Assembly: GCA_030053915.1 (NCBI GenBank)
Contig: JASGCT010000002.1
Span: 1-64,000 of the forward strand
Length of the DNA stretch: 64,000 nt
DNA from: Alphaproteobacteria bacterium
Lineage (GTDB): Bacteria > Bacteroidota > Bacteroidia > Chitinophagales > Chitinophagaceae
Reading direction: 5' to 3'
The notes under the pieces were generated by a model that was not told where the DNA came from, ran no database searches, and was given only the letters and a program-made list of their open reading frames with translations. The translations under genes and the position numbers were made by a program. Below, piece after piece: positions 14,646-61,756 of this stretch. Position 1 is the stretch's first letter. Each line of letters opens with the position of its first letter.

Positions 14646-15230
14646 TTAATTCGTAATCTTTATCGGGAAATTAACATTAATATCAGCTGTTCCTTTAATA
14701 GAATTTTGAGTAACATTAGATGTTTTTAATCCTGGTAAATGCCTTAATTGTAAGTTTAAATTATATACACCAAGTGGCGCTACCGACTTCCAAAGTGTTT
14801 TTAATCCAACAGGCAAACCATTACTATCCATATCATCATAGTTAATGGTTACGGCTGTAGTAGGATTAGGAGTAAATATAAATTGATGTTCAAAGTCAAG
14901 GTCATCAATTTCTCCAGTAACATCTGTAACAACGCTATTTGTTACGTTCACTAATTTAATTTGGAAAGAATATTTAGTATTAGCACTTAAACGTATTGTA
15001 TCTGGCTTAACATTGGTTAAATCGCCATTGCCAGTTGGGTCAACTAATTTAAAAGAGTCCATTAAGATAGTATTTGTTGAATCGTAACGGTACAAAATAA
15101 TGCCCGAGGTAGCATCGTGGTTCCCTTCAACTGGAGGGTCTTTTTCGCAGGAGTTCAAACTGATTAAAGCCATAAAAATGGCTGAAAATATTGCTAATTG
15201 ATATAGCTTGTTTTTAAAGTGTTTTTTCAT
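14646..15230 (-). CDS. Lipoprotein associated with TonB receptor
   Basis: 194-residue exported lipoprotein with a lipobox ending at Cys28 (SLNSC) followed by an acidic EKD. The mature part is all-beta, Asp/Asn-rich, with a segment reading NYDDMDSNGLPVGLKT that I recall as typical of a Bacteroidota lipoprotein family found beside TonB-dependent receptors. It lacks the His/Glu-rich central stretch I associate with some members. It follows the receptor gene on the same strand with a 73-base gap and ends at the terminator. A substrate-capture role at the cell surface or in the periplasm is inferred from context only. Confidence 0.65.
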   Translation of the reverse strand: MKKHFKNKLYQLAIFSAIFMALISLNSCEKDPPVEGNHDATSGIILYRYDSTNTILMDSFKLVDPTGNGDLTNVKPDTIRLSANTKYSFQIKLVNVTNSVVTDVTGEIDDLDFEHQFIFTPNPTTAVTINYDDMDSNGLPVGLKTLWKSVAPLGVYNLNLQLRHLPGLKTSNVTQNSIKGTADINVNFPIKITN

Positions 15231-15303
15231 AATGAAATTTTTTAATTTATTGAATGCAAATTAGTTATTTTTTTACTTGCATGTATTAATAATTTGTTAA
15301 AGT

Positions 15304-17601
15304 TTAAAAATTATATTTTAATCGGACTGAGAGATTAATACCTGGTGCGTCTGTAAAATATCGGAATCTATTAAGATAATCTCGATATTGAATATTGAGC
15401 AGGTTATTAATACCTGCACCTAAACTAAAACGTTTTGAGAAGCCCCAGCCAAAATCTAAATTGGCTAATAGATACCCTTTGGGGGGTGGGGCAAAATCAT
15501 AATAATTTTTAGGAACCTGGTTTTGTTGAAAAACATATTTGAAACCAAGTTTAATGTATTTTGAAGCGGTATTTTTTTTAGTTTTAAAAGCATAGTTAAA
15601 TCCTATTCCTATATTTTGTGGTGGTATTTGAGGTAACCAATCGTTAATTTTAAGATCTCTTGCAAATAAAAACGAGGCATTAATAAGCGTAGATAAATTT
15701 TTATAAAGTGTTTTATTAAGTGTAAAATCTAAACCCGTAAATAAGGCATTGGTTTGATAATACTTAAAGGCTGGAAACGTGCCCGAAATTAATGTAATTG
15801 GATACGTTAAAGGTGTAACATTAATAAAATCTACTAAGATATTAGCATAAATGGAAATTTCAAGTTGATCTTTTTGATTATTAAAACCATATTGCCATTC
15901 TAAAATATTATTAAAGCCTTTTTCACTTTTTAAATTTGAATCCCCAATTTCAAAACTCGCCGTCCCTTGATGCAAACCATACACGAACAATTCGTTCACA
16001 TTAGGTGGACGCCAGGCTAACGAAGTATTAACATTTAGCTTGTTAAAATTACTAAAAGCTTTTTCGTAAAGAAAACTTCCTGAAAAATTGGCAAAAGTTA
16101 GAAATTGTTGATACACCCCTTTGGTATTATTTCGTGAGGTTACTAAAGATTTGTAATCGAAGCGCAGCCCAAATTCAATTTTTTGACGGTTAACCAAAGG
16201 TTTTTTAAAAATAGCAAAAGCGCCTGTGTTAATTAAATTATATTTGGGAATAAAAAACCTTGCCCCTGTCCAGGTATTTAATTGTATTTGATTACTAACT
16301 CCATAAATTTGATTAAAGCGGCTCTTTTTTTCAAAATAAACATCAGTTTGAATAGTTTGCAAGGTTAAATCTAATTCAGGTAAGTCGGTTATAACCGCAT
16401 AATCATATTCTTGACGATGGTTGTTTTGATACGAAACATTTGCGTTTAATTCTAATTTGTTTTTCAGTTTAAAAAAATTCTTAAATTTAAAAGTAAAGTG
16501 GTTAACGTCTTGATATGGTCGATTGATACTATAGTAAAAAGAGTCAAAATTGTTGATAGGAACTGGGCTTTTAATAGCATTTAATAAATCGTCTAAGCTT
16601 CCATAATTAGAGCCCACAAAAATACCTAATTTATTATGATAGTTATTAATAAAAATTTCATTGTTATAATTGGGTTTTCGTAAGCCTAAATAAGCGCTTA
16701 AATTCCATTCTACAATTCCGGTATTGGCAGTATAATACAACGGTGTTTGGGCATTACCTCCTTGTTTATAAGACGCTTGAACCCTCCAGCTAAAATCAGG
16801 AAACCGTACTAAATTTTGCTCCACCAAAGCTGCCGCACCAAAAAGGTGGTTGTTAGAAAAATAAACGGTATTAAATTCAGCATGCGTTTTTCGGTCTTTG
16901 GGTAAGGGATTCGGGTCGGCAATTACAACACCGCCTATAGCATCACCACCATAGATGAGATTAGACGCACCCTTTGAAACGGATAAATTTTGCGCCGCAA
17001 AAGCATCTACTTCAGGTGCATGATCGCTTCCCCATTGCTGCCCTTCTAGTTTTACCCCATTATTTAAAATAACAACCCGATTACTATGTAAACCATGAAT
17101 AACTGGCTTAGCAATGGTTGAACCAGTTTGCAACGTAGATACACCCGATAAATTACTTAGTGCATTGGCTAAAGATTGTCCTGACGTTTCTGACAATTGT
17201 TGTGTTGACAATTTCGATCTTGCCCCACTGTATTTAATAGCGCTTGTTCGCACTACAACCTCCTCTAATTTAGAAGCCGATCTTTTTAAATGAAGTATTA
17301 AACTTAAAATTTGTTCTTTAATAACAAGATCATAAAAGGAGCTATCATCGTTTGATCTCATGGTTAGTTTATATTTGCCTTTACATAAGCCATTAAACGT
17401 AAAAAAACCATTTTGGTTACTAATAAGTTGTTTCATTTCATTCTTTTCCATATTTAATATAGAAATAATGGCCCCACCTATTGGGTCTTCACTCCCAAAC
17501 TCTAATAGAGTACCGCTTACAACGTAACTACAATTTTGTGAATACAAAGAAGTAAACCCTGATATAACAATAAAAAACAATAAAATTAAAAACTTAAACA
17601 C
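15304..17601 (-). CDS. TonB-dependent outer-membrane receptor
   Basis: 765 residues: signal peptide 1-21, a CarboxypepD_reg-like beta domain (about 25-100), a plug domain (from about residue 112), and a 22-strand-type beta barrel ending in the terminal phenylalanine of LKYNF. The plug holds VIHGLHSNRVVILNNGVKLEGQ and then WGSDHAPEVDAF followed by ASNLIYGGDAIGGVV. The DHAPEVD segment resembles the receptor class that includes the zinc receptor ZnuD, so a metal or metal complex is a possible ligand. It lies between a His/Cys-rich small exported protein and a lipoprotein, all on one strand. Confidence 0.9.
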   Translation of the reverse strand: MFKFLILLFFIVISGFTSLYSQNCSYVVSGTLLEFGSEDPIGGAIISILNMEKNEMKQLISNQNGFFTFNGLCKGKYKLTMRSNDDSSFYDLVIKEQILSLILHLKRSASKLEEVVVRTSAIKYSGARSKLSTQQLSETSGQSLANALSNLSGVSTLQTGSTIAKPVIHGLHSNRVVILNNGVKLEGQQWGSDHAPEVDAFAAQNLSVSKGASNLIYGGDAIGGVVIADPNPLPKDRKTHAEFNTVYFSNNHLFGAAALVEQNLVRFPDFSWRVQASYKQGGNAQTPLYYTANTGIVEWNLSAYLGLRKPNYNNEIFINNYHNKLGIFVGSNYGSLDDLLNAIKSPVPINNFDSFYYSINRPYQDVNHFTFKFKNFFKLKNKLELNANVSYQNNHRQEYDYAVITDLPELDLTLQTIQTDVYFEKKSRFNQIYGVSNQIQLNTWTGARFFIPKYNLINTGAFAIFKKPLVNRQKIEFGLRFDYKSLVTSRNNTKGVYQQFLTFANFSGSFLYEKAFSNFNKLNVNTSLAWRPPNVNELFVYGLHQGTASFEIGDSNLKSEKGFNNILEWQYGFNNQKDQLEISIYANILVDFINVTPLTYPITLISGTFPAFKYYQTNALFTGLDFTLNKTLYKNLSTLINASFLFARDLKINDWLPQIPPQNIGIGFNYAFKTKKNTASKYIKLGFKYVFQQNQVPKNYYDFAPPPKGYLLANLDFGWGFSKRFSLGAGINNLLNIQYRDYLNRFRYFTDAPGINLSVRLKYNF

Positions 17602-53166: not shown

Positions 53167-53373
53167 TTAAAATTTTTTGGTAGCTACGCCATCTTTAATA
53201 GCTTGTAAAGCAGCGGCTTCACCCATCATAGCAGACATTTTATTGCCTTTACCATCATGTCCCTTTGCCATATATCCACCCCTTGCAGTTTTTGAAATTT
53301 CGGCATCTTGCATAGGTACATTTTTTTCTTTTGTTTTTAAACAATAGGCTTTAATTGCTTTTGAAATATCCAT
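53167..53373 (-). CDS. 68-residue protein resembling a zinc ribbon without its cysteines
   Basis: 68 residues, soluble, starting MDISKAIKAYCLKTKEK. The order AYC-x-K, two short strands with KTARGGYMAKG, and a further GNKM recalls DUF5679-type zinc ribbons (AYCVKCK ... GTCPxCGTKM), but only one cysteine of the four remains. A C-terminal Ala-rich helix follows. It lies 52 bases downstream of the ferric-reductase/Rieske fusion on the same strand, with its own promoter box. The similarity is by eye, and function is unknown. Confidence 0.6.
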   Translation of the reverse strand: MDISKAIKAYCLKTKEKNVPMQDAEISKTARGGYMAKGHDGKGNKMSAMMGEAAALQAIKDGVATKKF

Positions 53374-53425: not shown

Positions 53426-55243
53426 TTATTGTCTAAAAATTTTACTTGTATTGATTTTGAACAGCTTCCAATTATAAAATTGGTATAAATTACCTTGAAT
53501 TTTAATAGGATCACCAATATAAGGCTTTATGTCTTCAAATAATGCCTCAGGATTTTCGGTGTATAATAGAGCATACTGTTTTGTTCCAAAGATTGTATAG
53601 GCAAACATAGGTGAAATACCTCCAGAGATACAACGTATGGCACATGATTTATGTGGTTTTCCTTGACCAGGATTCATGGCGCCAAAATAACATTTAGGAT
53701 CTATAATTTCACCTGCAAGGGTTATCGAACTGTCTATAATAGTCATCGGCAAAAACTTAGGCAACACCGGGGCGTGAAGTGTTTTTACAGAATTAAGCCC
53801 ATTACTAAGTTCGATGATATAAGTTGAATCTCGATGCATCCAATTGCCTGTTATTTCAACAAACGGGGCTTGATTGTGGTCTTGCTTTTTCAAAGATTCA
53901 AAAATAGCACCCACACCAAATTTTCGAGCATTTACTAATGGATAGGCTTTAAAATTAGGATTCCCATAAATATCTCTATTACCTAGCTCTAAAAACATGG
54001 CACAAGGGTATTGAATTAAAAACCCTTGTTTAGGCTTTGGTAATTGGCTATAATACGAAGGTGCAATGTGTTTTTGTTTTAATGCCAATAAGCCTGCCAG
54101 CACTATCAGAAGCATTAAGAAAATGATACTAATTTTTTTTAAAAAAATAAAATAATTTTTTGGAATCTTGGCTTTCCAACCTATATAAAATTCTTGAGCT
54201 TTTATATTAGGATAGTCTATTTCTAAAGGTTTAACATAGGTGCCTTCTGGATTTTTTTTAGGATAGATATAAATAAGATTGTCTTTAAATTTAAGATTAT
54301 ACGTTGATAACTTCTCTTTAAATGGAGGCGGAGCACATCCATCTTCGGGTCGGTATTGATACCCATGCCAAGGACAAGTGATACAACCTTGAACAATTTT
54401 ACCTTCACCAATAGGACCACCTTGGTGCTTGCAAATATTTGAAACTGCACTCAGTGTTTTATTATATTTAAATATAGCAACCCTTTCATTATTTACAAGA
54501 ACTATTTTGGCTTGTTTTTCAGGAATCGTATCTAAATTACCTACAAGTAGCCAATCATCTTGATGAGACAGGTTTTGATGATCTTTTTTCATTTCAATAA
54601 AACCACTCCAAATATGTAAAGTAATTAATGTAATTGCCCCAATGAACAACAAAACAAAATAAATCCAGCTCGTTTCAAGTTCTAATACGCCTAAACAAAT
54701 ATGACCAATAAGTAACAAATAAGCCAAATACACCCCATAATGAAGGGTCTTCCAAAAATTGGGGCTTAATGTATTTAACCAGTAATCGTGACTTGTAAAC
54801 GCCATCGTTAACAAAATAAGGTAAGCCAAAAACCCTAAAACCTGAAAAGGAAAATAATAAAGCGACCCATAATTGGTATTGCTTAAAAACAAAGACATGA
54901 ACATCCACATATTGCCATTCCCATGAAATAACCACAATGAAAACCAGGCATGTACACTTGCAATAATAAATAAACTAACCCCAAAATGCCTGCGATTATA
55001 TAATAGTAGTTTCCAATGTTTATTAATACGAGCTAAAGGACCAATAGCTAACACGATATGTAGCATAATAATTGCCAAAGTGCCAAAACTTCTTATGAGT
55101 ACATTTTCGAAAGTAATCGTTGGAAATACCGTAAAACTAATAATCCAAAAAACACTTAAATAAAATACTATAAAAATCCAAAGTGTGGTGTCATATATTT
55201 TTTTTTGGGTATTCCATTGAACAAGTTGGTAAGAGGTGCTCAT
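53426..55243 (-). CDS. Ferric-reductase-like / Rieske / C-terminal CxxxG-HxxC domain fusion
   Basis: 605 residues. Residues 20-215 form six membrane helices of the ferric-reductase (MsrQ-like) type, with candidate haem ligands H62, H98, H168 and H181. Residues 230-330 are a Rieske domain with C271-x-H273 and C290-x2-H293 ligating [2Fe-2S]. A further helix spans about 369-388, and residues 405-605 form a separate domain with D516-x-K-C518, GxMxPGxG, H531-x2-C534 and C538. Haem b and a Rieske cluster in one chain suggest a membrane electron carrier or reductase. No flavin/NAD domain is present, so the donor is external. Its ATG overlaps the stop of the 33-residue gene upstream. Confidence 0.8.
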   Translation of the reverse strand: MSTSYQLVQWNTQKKIYDTTLWIFIVFYLSVFWIISFTVFPTITFENVLIRSFGTLAIIMLHIVLAIGPLARINKHWKLLLYNRRHFGVSLFIIASVHAWFSLWLFHGNGNMWMFMSLFLSNTNYGSLYYFPFQVLGFLAYLILLTMAFTSHDYWLNTLSPNFWKTLHYGVYLAYLLLIGHICLGVLELETSWIYFVLLFIGAITLITLHIWSGFIEMKKDHQNLSHQDDWLLVGNLDTIPEKQAKIVLVNNERVAIFKYNKTLSAVSNICKHQGGPIGEGKIVQGCITCPWHGYQYRPEDGCAPPPFKEKLSTYNLKFKDNLIYIYPKKNPEGTYVKPLEIDYPNIKAQEFYIGWKAKIPKNYFIFLKKISIIFLMLLIVLAGLLALKQKHIAPSYYSQLPKPKQGFLIQYPCAMFLELGNRDIYGNPNFKAYPLVNARKFGVGAIFESLKKQDHNQAPFVEITGNWMHRDSTYIIELSNGLNSVKTLHAPVLPKFLPMTIIDSSITLAGEIIDPKCYFGAMNPGQGKPHKSCAIRCISGGISPMFAYTIFGTKQYALLYTENPEALFEDIKPYIGDPIKIQGNLYQFYNWKLFKINTSKIFRQ

Positions 55244-55341
55244 GATTGTCTATTACAAAATACCCAAATGATTAAAAAGATAATAAGTGGGGCTATGAAA
55301 ACCCAGATGTAAAAATGTTGTTTTCTTAAATTTCTATCCAT
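55240..55341 (-). CDS. 33-residue single-helix membrane protein
   Basis: An ATG at 55341 opens a 33-codon frame ending with TGA at 55240-55242; the stop overlaps the start of the fusion gene in ATGA. The product has a basic start (MDRNLRKQ), a hydrophobic helix from about Y11 to C29, and a polar end (NRQS). Eight bases separate it from the stop of the HmuY-like gene. The tight packing and overlap indicate a real gene. It may be a small subunit of the membrane reductase. No family recognised. Confidence 0.75.
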   Translation of the reverse strand: MDRNLRKQHFYIWVFIAPLIIFLIIWVFCNRQS

Positions 55342-55349
55342 ATTTATGT

Positions 55350-55988
55350 TTAAAAAACTGGAGTTCCATTCGGTTGAAATACATACCGAAAACTAAAATA
55401 ACCCAAATTGTTTTGGGTGGTAGAATTACTATTTTTATAAAACGATAAAACTTCCATTTTTGCCCATTTTCGATTGGCGGTTCTAATAACCAAAAATCGT
55501 TGTGGAACCGGATAAATAAAATTATTGATTGCATCGTATTTAAACCAACTATTACTGGTATTATTATCAGGAAAAACTGAAACGACTGGATTATTAGGCT
55601 GGTCTTGTTTTACCCTAATATCTTGAGCATAAAGTAAGGTGTCTAAAATTCCAGTTGTTAAATAAGCGCCTCCAACTCCTCGTCCACTTGAACCGCCGTT
55701 AAATTGAATGGTGGGATAATTATTGTTCGTAGAGAAAACCACACGAATATCCCAAAGTGTAGAAGCACTATCTTGTGGGGGAATAACCGATTGGGTTTCA
55801 AAACTATAATACCAAGCAGTATGTGTTAAAATGGCTTGGCTATTCACTATATTTAAAACCGAATCAACTCTTAGATTATTTTCTGTTTTAAGTATAACAA
55901 ATTGAGGTTGGAATGTTTGTGTGCAATTTTGAAAAACAAAAATCACGAAAACAACAATTGGAAACACAATTTTTTTTTTCAACATCAT
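55350..55988 (-). CDS. HmuY-family lipoprotein
   Basis: 212 residues; signal with lipobox ending at Cys22 (FQNC). The mature part matches the HmuY pattern: TAWYYSFETQSV, SASTLWDIRVVF, the glycine loop NGGSSGRGVGGAY, then VIRTANRKWAKMEVLSFYK and a closing FSFRYVFQPNGT strand. HmuY of Porphyromonas is a surface haem-capture lipoprotein; homologues use His or Met ligands, and I cannot point to the ligand pair here. There is no HmuR receptor next to it. It is first in an operon with the 33-residue protein and the reductase fusion. A second ATG at 55985 is also possible. Confidence 0.78.
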   Translation of the reverse strand: MMLKKKIVFPIVVFVIFVFQNCTQTFQPQFVILKTENNLRVDSVLNIVNSQAILTHTAWYYSFETQSVIPPQDSASTLWDIRVVFSTNNNYPTIQFNGGSSGRGVGGAYLTTGILDTLLYAQDIRVKQDQPNNPVVSVFPDNNTSNSWFKYDAINNFIYPVPQRFLVIRTANRKWAKMEVLSFYKNSNSTTQNNLGYFSFRYVFQPNGTPVF

Positions 55989-56002: not shown

Positions 56003-56010
56003 CAAAATTA
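56003..56010 (-). promoter_or_regulatory. Predicted -7 box TAATTTTG for the HmuY-like operon
   Basis: Minus-strand TAnnTTTG match, 14 bases before the ATG at 55988. The remaining part of the 253-base gap to 56241 is AT-rich and contains no gene, terminator or operator I can support. Confidence 0.6.
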
Positions 56011-57853: not shown

Positions 57854-58867
57854 ATGACGTATAGGTACTATTTGAAAAGCAATTTTTGGAGTATTTTTTT
57901 GATTTTAATGATGGGATGCTCAGAACATAATAATAAAAAAACCTTGAACCATATTAAAGAAAATTGCCATTTAGTCCGTTTAGATAGCTTTATGTTTGGA
58001 ACACACAAGCCTAATTTTGATTCTCAAATTCAATTACTTAAAACAAATTATCCAGGATTTGCCGAAATTTTTTTATTACAAATAATTGGTCTTAATCAAA
58101 AGCATTTAGCCACAAACTATGCCCAGTTTATAGATGCCTATCAACCCATTTATAACGTAGCAAACCATAAATTTGGAAGTTTTGATACATATTACGATAA
58201 AATTATAAGTGGTTTTAGCAATATGCAGCGTTTTTTCCCTAATTATAGTTTGCCTAAACATATTTACACGTTTATAGCACCTTTCAATTCTTATGCATGT
58301 ATTTTGGCGCCTGATGGTTTAGGTATTGGTTTACAAATGTATTTAGGGTCAGATTATAGTCTCTATTATGCCGAAGATCTTAATAAATTTTTTCCTTCTT
58401 ATATGATTCGAAAATTTGATGCACATTATTTAATTTATGACGCCATGTTTAACGTAGTAAACGATATTTTTCCAGAAAAAAAGAACTTAAATGCTCTGTT
58501 GGAACAAATGATTGAATCTGGGAAAAAAAAATATGTTGTTAAACAAATTTTACCAGAAATTGAAGATACTATATTATTTGGCATGACCAGTAAACATTAT
58601 CAAAATTTGCAAAAAGAAATAGAAAACATTTGGACATATTTATTACAAAACAAATTATTATATTCTCGCGACCCGTTATTTATCAGGGATTTTGTTGGAG
58701 AAGGTCCGTATTGCACGGCATTGGGCGAAGGCTTACCTGCTGATTTAGGATCCTATTTAGGATTCTTAATTGTTCAAAAATGGGTTAAAACAAACAAAAA
58801 AACACTTCAAGATTTAATATTACAAGATAATTTAGTTTTATTTAATGAATCCGGGTTTCGTCCTTAA
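57854..58867 (+). CDS. gldB: Gliding motility lipoprotein GldB
   Basis: 337 residues, lipobox ending at Cys22 (LMMGC). The GldB pattern is seen: YPGFAEIFLLQIIGL, a central IYTFIAPFNSYACILAPDGLGIGLQMYLGSDYSLYY segment and a C-terminal RDFVGEGPYCTALGEGLPADLGSYLGFLIV. GldB is essential for gliding in Flavobacterium, anchored in the envelope; its fold recalls DUF2268-type peptidases. In flavobacteria it is next to gldC, whereas here the neighbours are DUF2007, cdsA and gldJ. Confidence 0.9.
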   Translation: MTYRYYLKSNFWSIFLILMMGCSEHNNKKTLNHIKENCHLVRLDSFMFGTHKPNFDSQIQLLKTNYPGFAEIFLLQIIGLNQKHLATNYAQFIDAYQPIYNVANHKFGSFDTYYDKIISGFSNMQRFFPNYSLPKHIYTFIAPFNSYACILAPDGLGIGLQMYLGSDYSLYYAEDLNKFFPSYMIRKFDAHYLIYDAMFNVVNDIFPEKKNLNALLEQMIESGKKKYVVKQILPEIEDTILFGMTSKHYQNLQKEIENIWTYLLQNKLLYSRDPLFIRDFVGEGPYCTALGEGLPADLGSYLGFLIVQKWVKTNKKTLQDLILQDNLVLFNESGFRP

Positions 58868-60127: not shown

Positions 60128-61756
60128 ATGAGTAAAATAATTAAAAAAACTACCCTCTTTACCCTTATTATTATGGTTGTTATAGCCTGTAATAATAAGC
60201 ATATTTTAGAGCAACATAGTGCGTTTTCGCCAACTACAGGTTGGGATTATGATAATTTTAGGGGTGTCTCGAATCCAAGTGGCGTTTTTTATAGTACCCC
60301 ACCCGGTATGGTATTTATAAAAGGAAGTATGTTTAAAATGGGCGCCGATCAGCAAGATGTTAGAGATAATTGGAATACTTTTACAAAACGCGCCACAGTA
60401 AATAGTTATTATATTGATAGAGTTGAAGTTACAAATATTGCTTATAAAGAATATATCGACTGGCTCGAAACAACTTTTATTGCAAATACCGCCATTCCAA
60501 AAGATAAACTTAAAGACGTTTCTAAAATATATAAAGATGCCTTACCAGACTCTCTGTGTTGGAGAGACCCATTAGCCTATAACGAACCTCTTGTAGAAGA
60601 ATACTTTCATGCACCAGCCTTTCATAACTACCCAGTAGTTGGGGTTAGTTGGAATCAAGCTACTAACTTTTGTAAATGGCGCACTAATAGAGTTAATGAA
60701 AACATCCTTGTTTCTAAAGGTTATATTTTGTCAAAACCAGACAAAAATTCAAAAGAAGCCCAAGAAATTAAAGTGAAACCAACCGTTACGCCAAAAAGTA
60801 AAAAAGGTGGCTTAAAACTACAGCCAGTTGCACCGGCTCAAGCCAATATTACCCCAACCAATACCGCAGCAGCCGATTCATCACTATTATCACCGCCATG
60901 GGTTAAAGAAATTTTTGATACCAAATCTTACAAAATTGGCGAATATACCCCAAAATATCAACCCTCAAATAAAGGCAGAAAAAATGCAATAAACGAAGGC
61001 ATCATGTTTCCCGATTACCGATTACCCACTGAAGCTGAATGGGAATATGCCGCAAGTGCTACCATACACGACTTCCCAACCCAAGACAAAAAAAGCAAAA
61101 AAGTTGTTGAAAGCCAAGAACTTGTAACTTTAAGAAAAATAAACGTTTTTGGTAATAATAATATTTTAAATTATGATTATAATAATTATAATTTTAAACG
61201 AAATAATGGTAATTATGCTGGAACTTTAGGCGAAAAATCTGATGATAATATTTTTCCTGGAAATGTGTATTCATACTTACCTAATGTGTTCGGACTTTAT
61301 AATATGCTTGGCAATGTAAGCGAGTGGGTGAACGATGTTTATAGACCTTATAGTAATATTGATGAATCAGACATTAATCCATTCCGTGGTAATGTTTTTA
61401 CAGAACCCAATAGTGGTAATGGTGCTGGTACTATGCGCGACAATCAAGGAAATATCAAAACACGATTGCAAAGCAATGTAGAGGTTAGAGATAGAACTAA
61501 TTATACAACTGCCGACAATATTGATTATAAAGATGGCGACGTGAATAGTAATGCCTATTATAACTTTGGTGCAGCTACTTTAATAAACGACAACTCAAGA
61601 ATTTATAAAGGTGGTAGTTGGAACGATCGCTCCTATTGGCTTAACCCCGGCAATAAGCGCTATTTAGACCAAGCCAAAAGTACTGCAACAATAGGATTTA
61701 GATGTGCTATGAGCCACTATTCATCAGCCAATAATTCACAAAATAATTTAAAATAA
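60128..61756 (+). CDS. gldJ: Gliding motility lipoprotein GldJ
   Basis: 542 residues, lipobox ending at Cys21 (VIAC). The protein has the formylglycine-generating-enzyme fold split by an insert: PPGMVFIKGSMFKMG, VEVTNIAYKEYIDWL, NYPVVGVSWNQATNFCKWR; then a Lys/Pro/Ala-rich insert (about residues 205-270); then FPDYRLPTEAEWEYAA, LGNVSEWVNDVY and GGSWNDRSYWLNPGNKRYLD. The ordered blocks fit GldJ better than GldK. It is required for gliding and for stability of GldK in Flavobacterium. In flavobacteria murF follows gldJ; here ispF lies between. Confidence 0.9.
   Translation: MSKIIKKTTLFTLIIMVVIACNNKHILEQHSAFSPTTGWDYDNFRGVSNPSGVFYSTPPGMVFIKGSMFKMGADQQDVRDNWNTFTKRATVNSYYIDRVEVTNIAYKEYIDWLETTFIANTAIPKDKLKDVSKIYKDALPDSLCWRDPLAYNEPLVEEYFHAPAFHNYPVVGVSWNQATNFCKWRTNRVNENILVSKGYILSKPDKNSKEAQEIKVKPTVTPKSKKGGLKLQPVAPAQANITPTNTAAADSSLLSPPWVKEIFDTKSYKIGEYTPKYQPSNKGRKNAINEGIMFPDYRLPTEAEWEYAASATIHDFPTQDKKSKKVVESQELVTLRKINVFGNNNILNYDYNNYNFKRNNGNYAGTLGEKSDDNIFPGNVYSYLPNVFGLYNMLGNVSEWVNDVYRPYSNIDESDINPFRGNVFTEPNSGNGAGTMRDNQGNIKTRLQSNVEVRDRTNYTTADNIDYKDGDVNSNAYYNFGAATLINDNSRIYKGGSWNDRSYWLNPGNKRYLDQAKSTATIGFRCAMSHYSSANNSQNNLK

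Follow-up and report, generated by a model that had tools for sequence, protein, structure and literature searches.

The operon described here, three genes in a stretch of 64,000 nucleotides (hereafter the window), probably encodes an inner-membrane electron-transfer module together with a lineage-specific, receptor-less lipoprotein of the HmuY fold that faces the periplasm. The reductase module is the robust and recurrent part of this arrangement, and a coupling of surface haem capture to the reductase is unlikely. The gene order, the protein families and their conservation, the operon-like spacing and the unique position of the HmuY-like gene are established by sequence comparison; the joint function of the three products we infer.

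Gene layout and the conserved reductase operon

Three co-directional open reading frames on the minus strand follow one another in the order lipoprotein, 33-aa protein, 605-aa fusion. A gap of 8 bases separates the first two genes and an ATGA overlap joins the second and third, so that the ORF positions and spacing reported in the preliminary description are fully borne out. The features are as follows:

56003..56010, minus strand: TAATTTTG, Bacteroidota −7-like element (consensus TAnnTTTG), weak evidence
55350..55988, minus strand: lipoprotein of predicted HmuY fold, 212 aa, with no TonB receptor adjoining
55240..55341, minus strand: 33-aa single-helix protein, short LRKRH form, ATGA overlap with the reductase gene
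53426..55243, minus strand: 605-aa fusion of YedZ-type ferric-reductase, Rieske, TM7 and tandem OB parts
54707..55087, minus strand: Ferric_reduct domain of the fusion (Pfam), aa 53–179
54299..54553, minus strand: Rieske domain of the fusion (Pfam), aa 231–315, predicted cytoplasmic
53429..54223, minus strand: C-terminal part of the fusion, aa 341–605, membrane helix and two OB folds, predicted periplasmic
53630..53692, minus strand: motif C518-YFGA-M523-NPGQGKP-H531-KS-C534-AIR-C538, candidate metal, Fe-S or haem site

The −7-like element matches the consensus perfectly and begins 22 bases ahead of the lipoprotein start codon, with a chance expectation of about 0.12 per 100 bp per strand; this one element at most suggests the single promoter that had been claimed for the three genes. 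No Rfam element was found upstream of the operon in the 50–60 kb part of the window. In GC content and codon usage the operon does not differ from other parts of the window. Its upstream neighbour, 253 bp away, is a flippase-like gene; 52 bp downstream of the fusion gene, a 68-aa ORF on the same strand (53167–53373) could be a fourth gene. Also near the operon are the gliding-motility gene gldB (57854–58867, Pfam GldB_lipo) and a gene whose product reads as a GldJ/GldK-like lipoprotein (60128–61756).

A scan of GTDB genomes confirmed at least 550 relatives of the fusion. Counts over 80 reductase loci given here rest on the best 80 of these at least 550 relatives, and gene calls in the loci compared are ORF-based. 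By record title, the best 80 belong to Bacteroidota, Acidobacteriota, Gemmatimonadota, Cyanobacteriota, Bdellovibrionota, Alphaproteobacteria and Verrucomicrobia; the operon is also found on Rhizobium plasmids. Its usual gene order is 71-aa membrane protein, LRKRH protein, reductase-Rieske protein and OB protein. The 71-aa protein, present in 77 reductase loci, is absent from the window, and a search of the genome gave no convincing match (best E 0.18). A literature search, which covered open-access papers and not subscription papers, found no paper on this operon.

In most related loci, the gene for the LRKRH protein immediately precedes that for the reductase, often with an ATGA overlap. The LRKRH protein is about 140 aa long in most loci and 30–54 aa in others, and short forms of 30–42 aa occur in the fused Chitinophagaceae group. 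The 33-aa protein of the window has the LRKRH N-terminus (xxLRKxHxxIW), a single helix and the same place directly upstream of the reductase gene; judged by these features, it is the normal short form of this conserved membrane protein. A short form likewise occurs at the locus of a 608-aa fusion in another genome (G142) and in other fused relatives. The 33-aa ORF is not a product of chance, because ORFs with the same N-terminus occupy this place at most of the related loci, and the earlier view of it as a real membrane protein is upheld.

Among the genes that recur beside the reductase operon (L063–L071, L138) are some whose products read as YHS-domain, GMC oxidoreductase, aquaporin-like, SDR and glucosidase-like proteins, which gives a hint of a stress-related setting.

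The ferric-reductase, Rieske and OB fusion

Both domains assigned to the 605-aa protein in the preliminary description are above the Pfam cut-offs: Ferric_reduct (PF01794) scores 38.1 bits against a cut-off of 28, and Rieske 54 bits against one of 20.3. The Rieske cluster has its full ligand set, C271-x-H273 and C290-x2-H293, which is invariant across nine aligned homologues, and the motif is kept in 83/83 reductase loci. In the whole genome, there are four Rieske matches and one ferric-reductase match.

In the membrane domain, R84, H86, H98, H168 and H181 are invariant in nine aligned sequences, and the spacings R84–H98 (14) and H168–H181 (13) match those of NOX2 (101/115 and 209/222). According to a 2013 survey of the ferric-reductase superfamily (PMC3591440), Arg instead of the first haem His, with the other three His kept, is the mark of the YedZ/STEAP branch; YedZ/MsrQ and STEAP resemble the fusion in these four haem positions and in having six helices. 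On these residues and the Pfam match, the fusion is assigned to the ferric-reductase-domain superfamily, YedZ/STEAP-type. With Arg at the first haem position (R84), the fusion should have one complete bis-His site. Of the two b-haem sites proposed earlier, H98, H168 and H181 are in place; the second site is uncertain, with the extra invariant H86 as a possible ligand.

The NCBIfam MsrQ match of the fusion (1.4e-9) is far below the model cut-off. Unlike YedZ/MsrQ, the fusion carries Rieske and OB domains, and neither the window operon nor the recurrent operon neighbours showed an MsrP-like partner gene. The same pairing of ferric-reductase and Rieske domains is model M4 of the 2013 survey, but the OB part, the small proteins and the operon are not described in the accessible part of its text (PMC3591440). 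Rieske-type ferredoxins, such as NirD and dioxygenase ferredoxins, also have a Rieske domain with complete ligands, whereas that of the fusion is joined to a membrane cytochrome-like domain and does not serve an oxygenase or nitrite reductase.

Topology prediction from hydropathy and positive-inside charge gives an N-in protein with six helices, a cytoplasmic Rieske domain and a seventh helix leading outward, which would place the OB part in the periplasm. This C-terminal third, overlooked when the protein was described as a reductase/Rieske fusion, is modelled as a single membrane helix followed by two OB folds (AlphaFold2, pLDDT 91) and belongs to no Pfam or NCBIfam family. Its best Foldseek matches are tandem-OB proteins (Teb1, Thermus SSB, HIN domains), with low TM-scores. 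The motif C-x4-M-x7-H-x2-C-x3-C (C518 to C538) is invariant across 33 sequences and suggests a metal, Fe-S or haem site, because it has three Cys, one His and one Met.

In most relatives the OB part is encoded by its own gene, and it is fused to the reductase in 14 of 83 loci. The fusion maps to at least three changes on the tree, in a Chitinophagaceae-type group that includes the window, in Gemmatimonadota and at locus L108. By Rosetta-stone reasoning, such repeated fusion hints that the two halves act together. Stand-alone signal-peptide proteins of about 126 aa with the same C..H..C..C OB motif are encoded in many relatives of the Chitinophagaceae family (L061:9947-10324, L062:9533-9913, L022:1402-1782, L026:1408-1788); the one tested, from L062, matches no Pfam or NCBIfam family.

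The HmuY-fold lipoprotein and its missing receptor

The HmuY-like identity proposed earlier, including the structure match by which it was to be checked, is confirmed. The top Foldseek matches of the AlphaFold2 model (pLDDT 70) are the HmuY-family structures 8b6a (2.3e-7), 6ewm (4e-5) and 3h8t (1.2e-4), with TM-scores of 0.4–0.6; phmmer matches the sequence to 8b6a at 2e-8, and the Pfam HmuY model (PF14064) gives 23.1 bits, below the cut-off of 27. Sequence and model together are sound grounds for assigning the lipoprotein a HmuY fold closest to BfrB of B. fragilis (HmuY-Bf-2, PDB 8b6a), which it resembles in fold and core motif. The fold core and the invariant Trp/Gly positions are kept. Its branch is the longest of 34 sequences (3.94 versus a median of 0.3), which marks the window copy as fast-evolving. 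It differs from the HmuY family and from BfrB in having no adjacent receptor and no acidic export signal, and in falling under the Pfam cut-off.

In haem-binding HmuY proteins, a His/His, His/Met or Met/Met pair coordinates the haem iron (PMC7956564, PMC12106395). The inferred ligand region of the lipoprotein (residues 106–166, located by sequence alignment, not superposition) contains no His or Met, and H56 and M178 are the only such residues after the signal peptide. By this measure, the protein does not appear to be an iron-ligating HmuY haemophore. The same lack is common to 24 of the 34 HmuY-like sequences compared. BfrB likewise has no iron-ligating residues, and its reported haem binding probably involves no coordination of the iron (PMC12106395); by analogy with BfrB-like members, the lipoprotein may bind haem in this way.

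It should be noted that most HmuY-like proteins of the family (L052–L059, L172–L198), though encoded beside HmuR-like receptors, are without the known His/Met pairs, and that the one HmuR-like receptor tested best matches a B12 receptor model, below the model cut-off. The ligand of these receptor-paired proteins may not be haem. No cobalamin riboswitch was found near 17 receptor-paired HmuY-like loci, and no link between BtuH and HmuY was found in the literature.

The lipobox-like Cys22 stands in an atypical FQNC and is followed by TQTFQPQ, that is, without any Lys or acidic residue after the Cys. Among receptor-paired homologues, 32 of 33 have at least one acidic residue at +2 to +7. The surface-lipoprotein export signal of Bacteroidota after Cys+1 is K-(D/E)2, Q-A-(D/E)2 or S-D-rich (PMC5080379), and because the signal of this published rule is missing, the lipoprotein should face the periplasm rather than the cell surface; its description as a surface protein is doubtful.

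The statement that HmuY proteins usually come with a TonB receptor, and that none is present here, agrees with our data. A HmuR-like receptor is encoded in the locus, on the same strand, for all 33 HmuY-like homologues (32 loci, nearly all from the window's family), within 50 bp except for one tandem second copy 770 bp away; no reductase gene occurs in these loci. No HmuR-like receptor adjoins the window lipoprotein, which without a cognate receptor falls outside the definition of a HmuY-HmuR uptake system. The genome has one good HmuR-like receptor, whose partner is a different HmuY-like protein encoded with it on another contig (C136). A recent duplication of that HmuY-like gene is unlikely, with 29% identity to it versus 34–42% to most best matches in other genera, and a horizontal origin was not indicated by composition, codon usage and GC of the lipoprotein gene being ordinary. 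Elsewhere in the window (14646–17601), a 194-aa lipoprotein and a 765-aa TonB-dependent receptor are encoded side by side and may be a further pair of this kind.

Conversely, no HmuY-like gene lies within 10 kb in the 80 other reductase loci, the best 80 of at least 550 relatives, and no HmuR-like receptor within 10 kb in 82 reductase loci, which tells against the suggested link between haem or iron capture and membrane electron flow. As far as could be seen, the position of a HmuY-like gene beside the reductase is specific to the window genome, the only one representing its genus. A neighbourhood confined to one genome had been named in advance as evidence against the proposed operon; such confinement is found for the HmuY part, whereas the part made up of the 33-aa protein and the reductase is widely conserved.

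Proposed electron route and possible roles of the lipoprotein

Two soluble Rieske enzymes are the best candidate donors. A Rieske-glutamate-synthase-like gene lies within 10 kb in 31 of 83 reductase loci and a Rieske-TPP (pyruvate-oxidase-like) gene, below the models' cut-offs, in 32 of 83. In the window genome, both are adjacent, beside complex I genes, on contig C8 (L143, 3–3326), which is a different contig from that of the operon and cuts the Rieske-TPP gene at its end. Of 396 genomes of the family, 30 have the reductase and 3 have Rieske-glutamate synthase, and all 3 belong to the 30 (hypergeometric 4e-4, ignoring kinship). A third soluble Rieske protein, on C136, is of the oxygenase type by sequence reading and was placed outside the module.

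In the model that we propose, with putative donors, acceptor, topology and direction of flow, soluble cytoplasmic enzymes, most plausibly these two, would supply electrons to the cytoplasmic Rieske cluster of the fusion. From there, b-type haem of the YedZ-like domain would carry them across the membrane to the tandem-OB domain in the periplasm, which has the Cys/Met/His/Cys/Cys site and would hand them to a periplasmic acceptor. The small membrane protein that the module normally includes would be represented by the 33-aa protein, in stripped-down form. The HmuY-fold lipoprotein would have left its TonB receptor, diverged strongly and come to stand where relatives have the 71-aa membrane protein, and any role it has in the module would be at the periplasmic face of the outer membrane. 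The occurrence of soluble Rieske enzymes near only 31–32 of 83 loci, and on a separate contig in the window genome, counts against the donor part of this model, and the 8-base gap and matching codon usage suit a fully integrated lipoprotein equally well.

For the lipoprotein, two accounts appear about equally likely, each a possibility to be taken seriously though not a favoured one. It may have been taken over as a periplasmic partner, for example, one that holds a porphyrin, cofactor or metal complex reduced by the OB domain or that replaces the lost periplasmic parts of the 71-aa or the LRKRH protein. Its occupation of the place of the missing 71-aa protein, the lack of an export signal, the very long branch and the retained fold core and invariant Trp/Gly positions agree with this; however, other fused members with a short LRKRH protein retain the 71-aa protein and have no HmuY, and no residue feature connects the lipoprotein with the OB domain. 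Replacement of the LRKRH periplasmic domain by the lipoprotein as a general rule was rejected, the other short-form loci being without HmuY. Alternatively, a duplicated or transferred HmuY-like gene may have landed behind this promoter and be drifting as a relic or hitch-hiker. The unique position, the longest branch of 34, the atypical FQNC lipobox and the sub-cut-off Pfam score are what a relic would show, but the ORF is intact, codon usage and GC are normal, core residues are conserved and the spacing is tight.

It is very improbable that the lipoprotein captures haem at the surface while the fusion reduces the haem iron or feeds electrons into haem or iron uptake. The HmuY fold and the co-directional genes with 8-base spacing fit such a role, and a reductase would be chemically sensible since many characterised Met-ligated HmuY proteins bind haem best when it is reduced (PMC12106395). 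Yet the inferred ligand region has no His or Met, the export signal is absent, no receptor is available for handover, the genome's single good HmuR-like receptor already has its own HmuY, and none of the 80 reductase loci (best 80 of at least 550 relatives) has a HmuY-like gene. An assembly artefact, conceivable in a draft of 166 contigs that is the one genome of its genus, can practically be dismissed: the junction spans 8 bases within one contig, which is at least 64 kb long and even in GC and codon usage.

A bolder reading, less likely than not, is an undescribed, widespread Rieske-based transmembrane pathway from soluble Rieske enzymes to a Rieske/YedZ/tandem-OB protein with a new periplasmic Cys/Met/His site, to which a HmuY-fold lipoprotein was recruited here on the periplasmic side. 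The lipoprotein shows a TonB-accessory fold naturally parted from its receptor, which on present evidence is a peculiarity of a single genome. The reductase module spans several phyla and its OB part lies outside Pfam and NCBIfam, so that assigning it a function would cover many genes.
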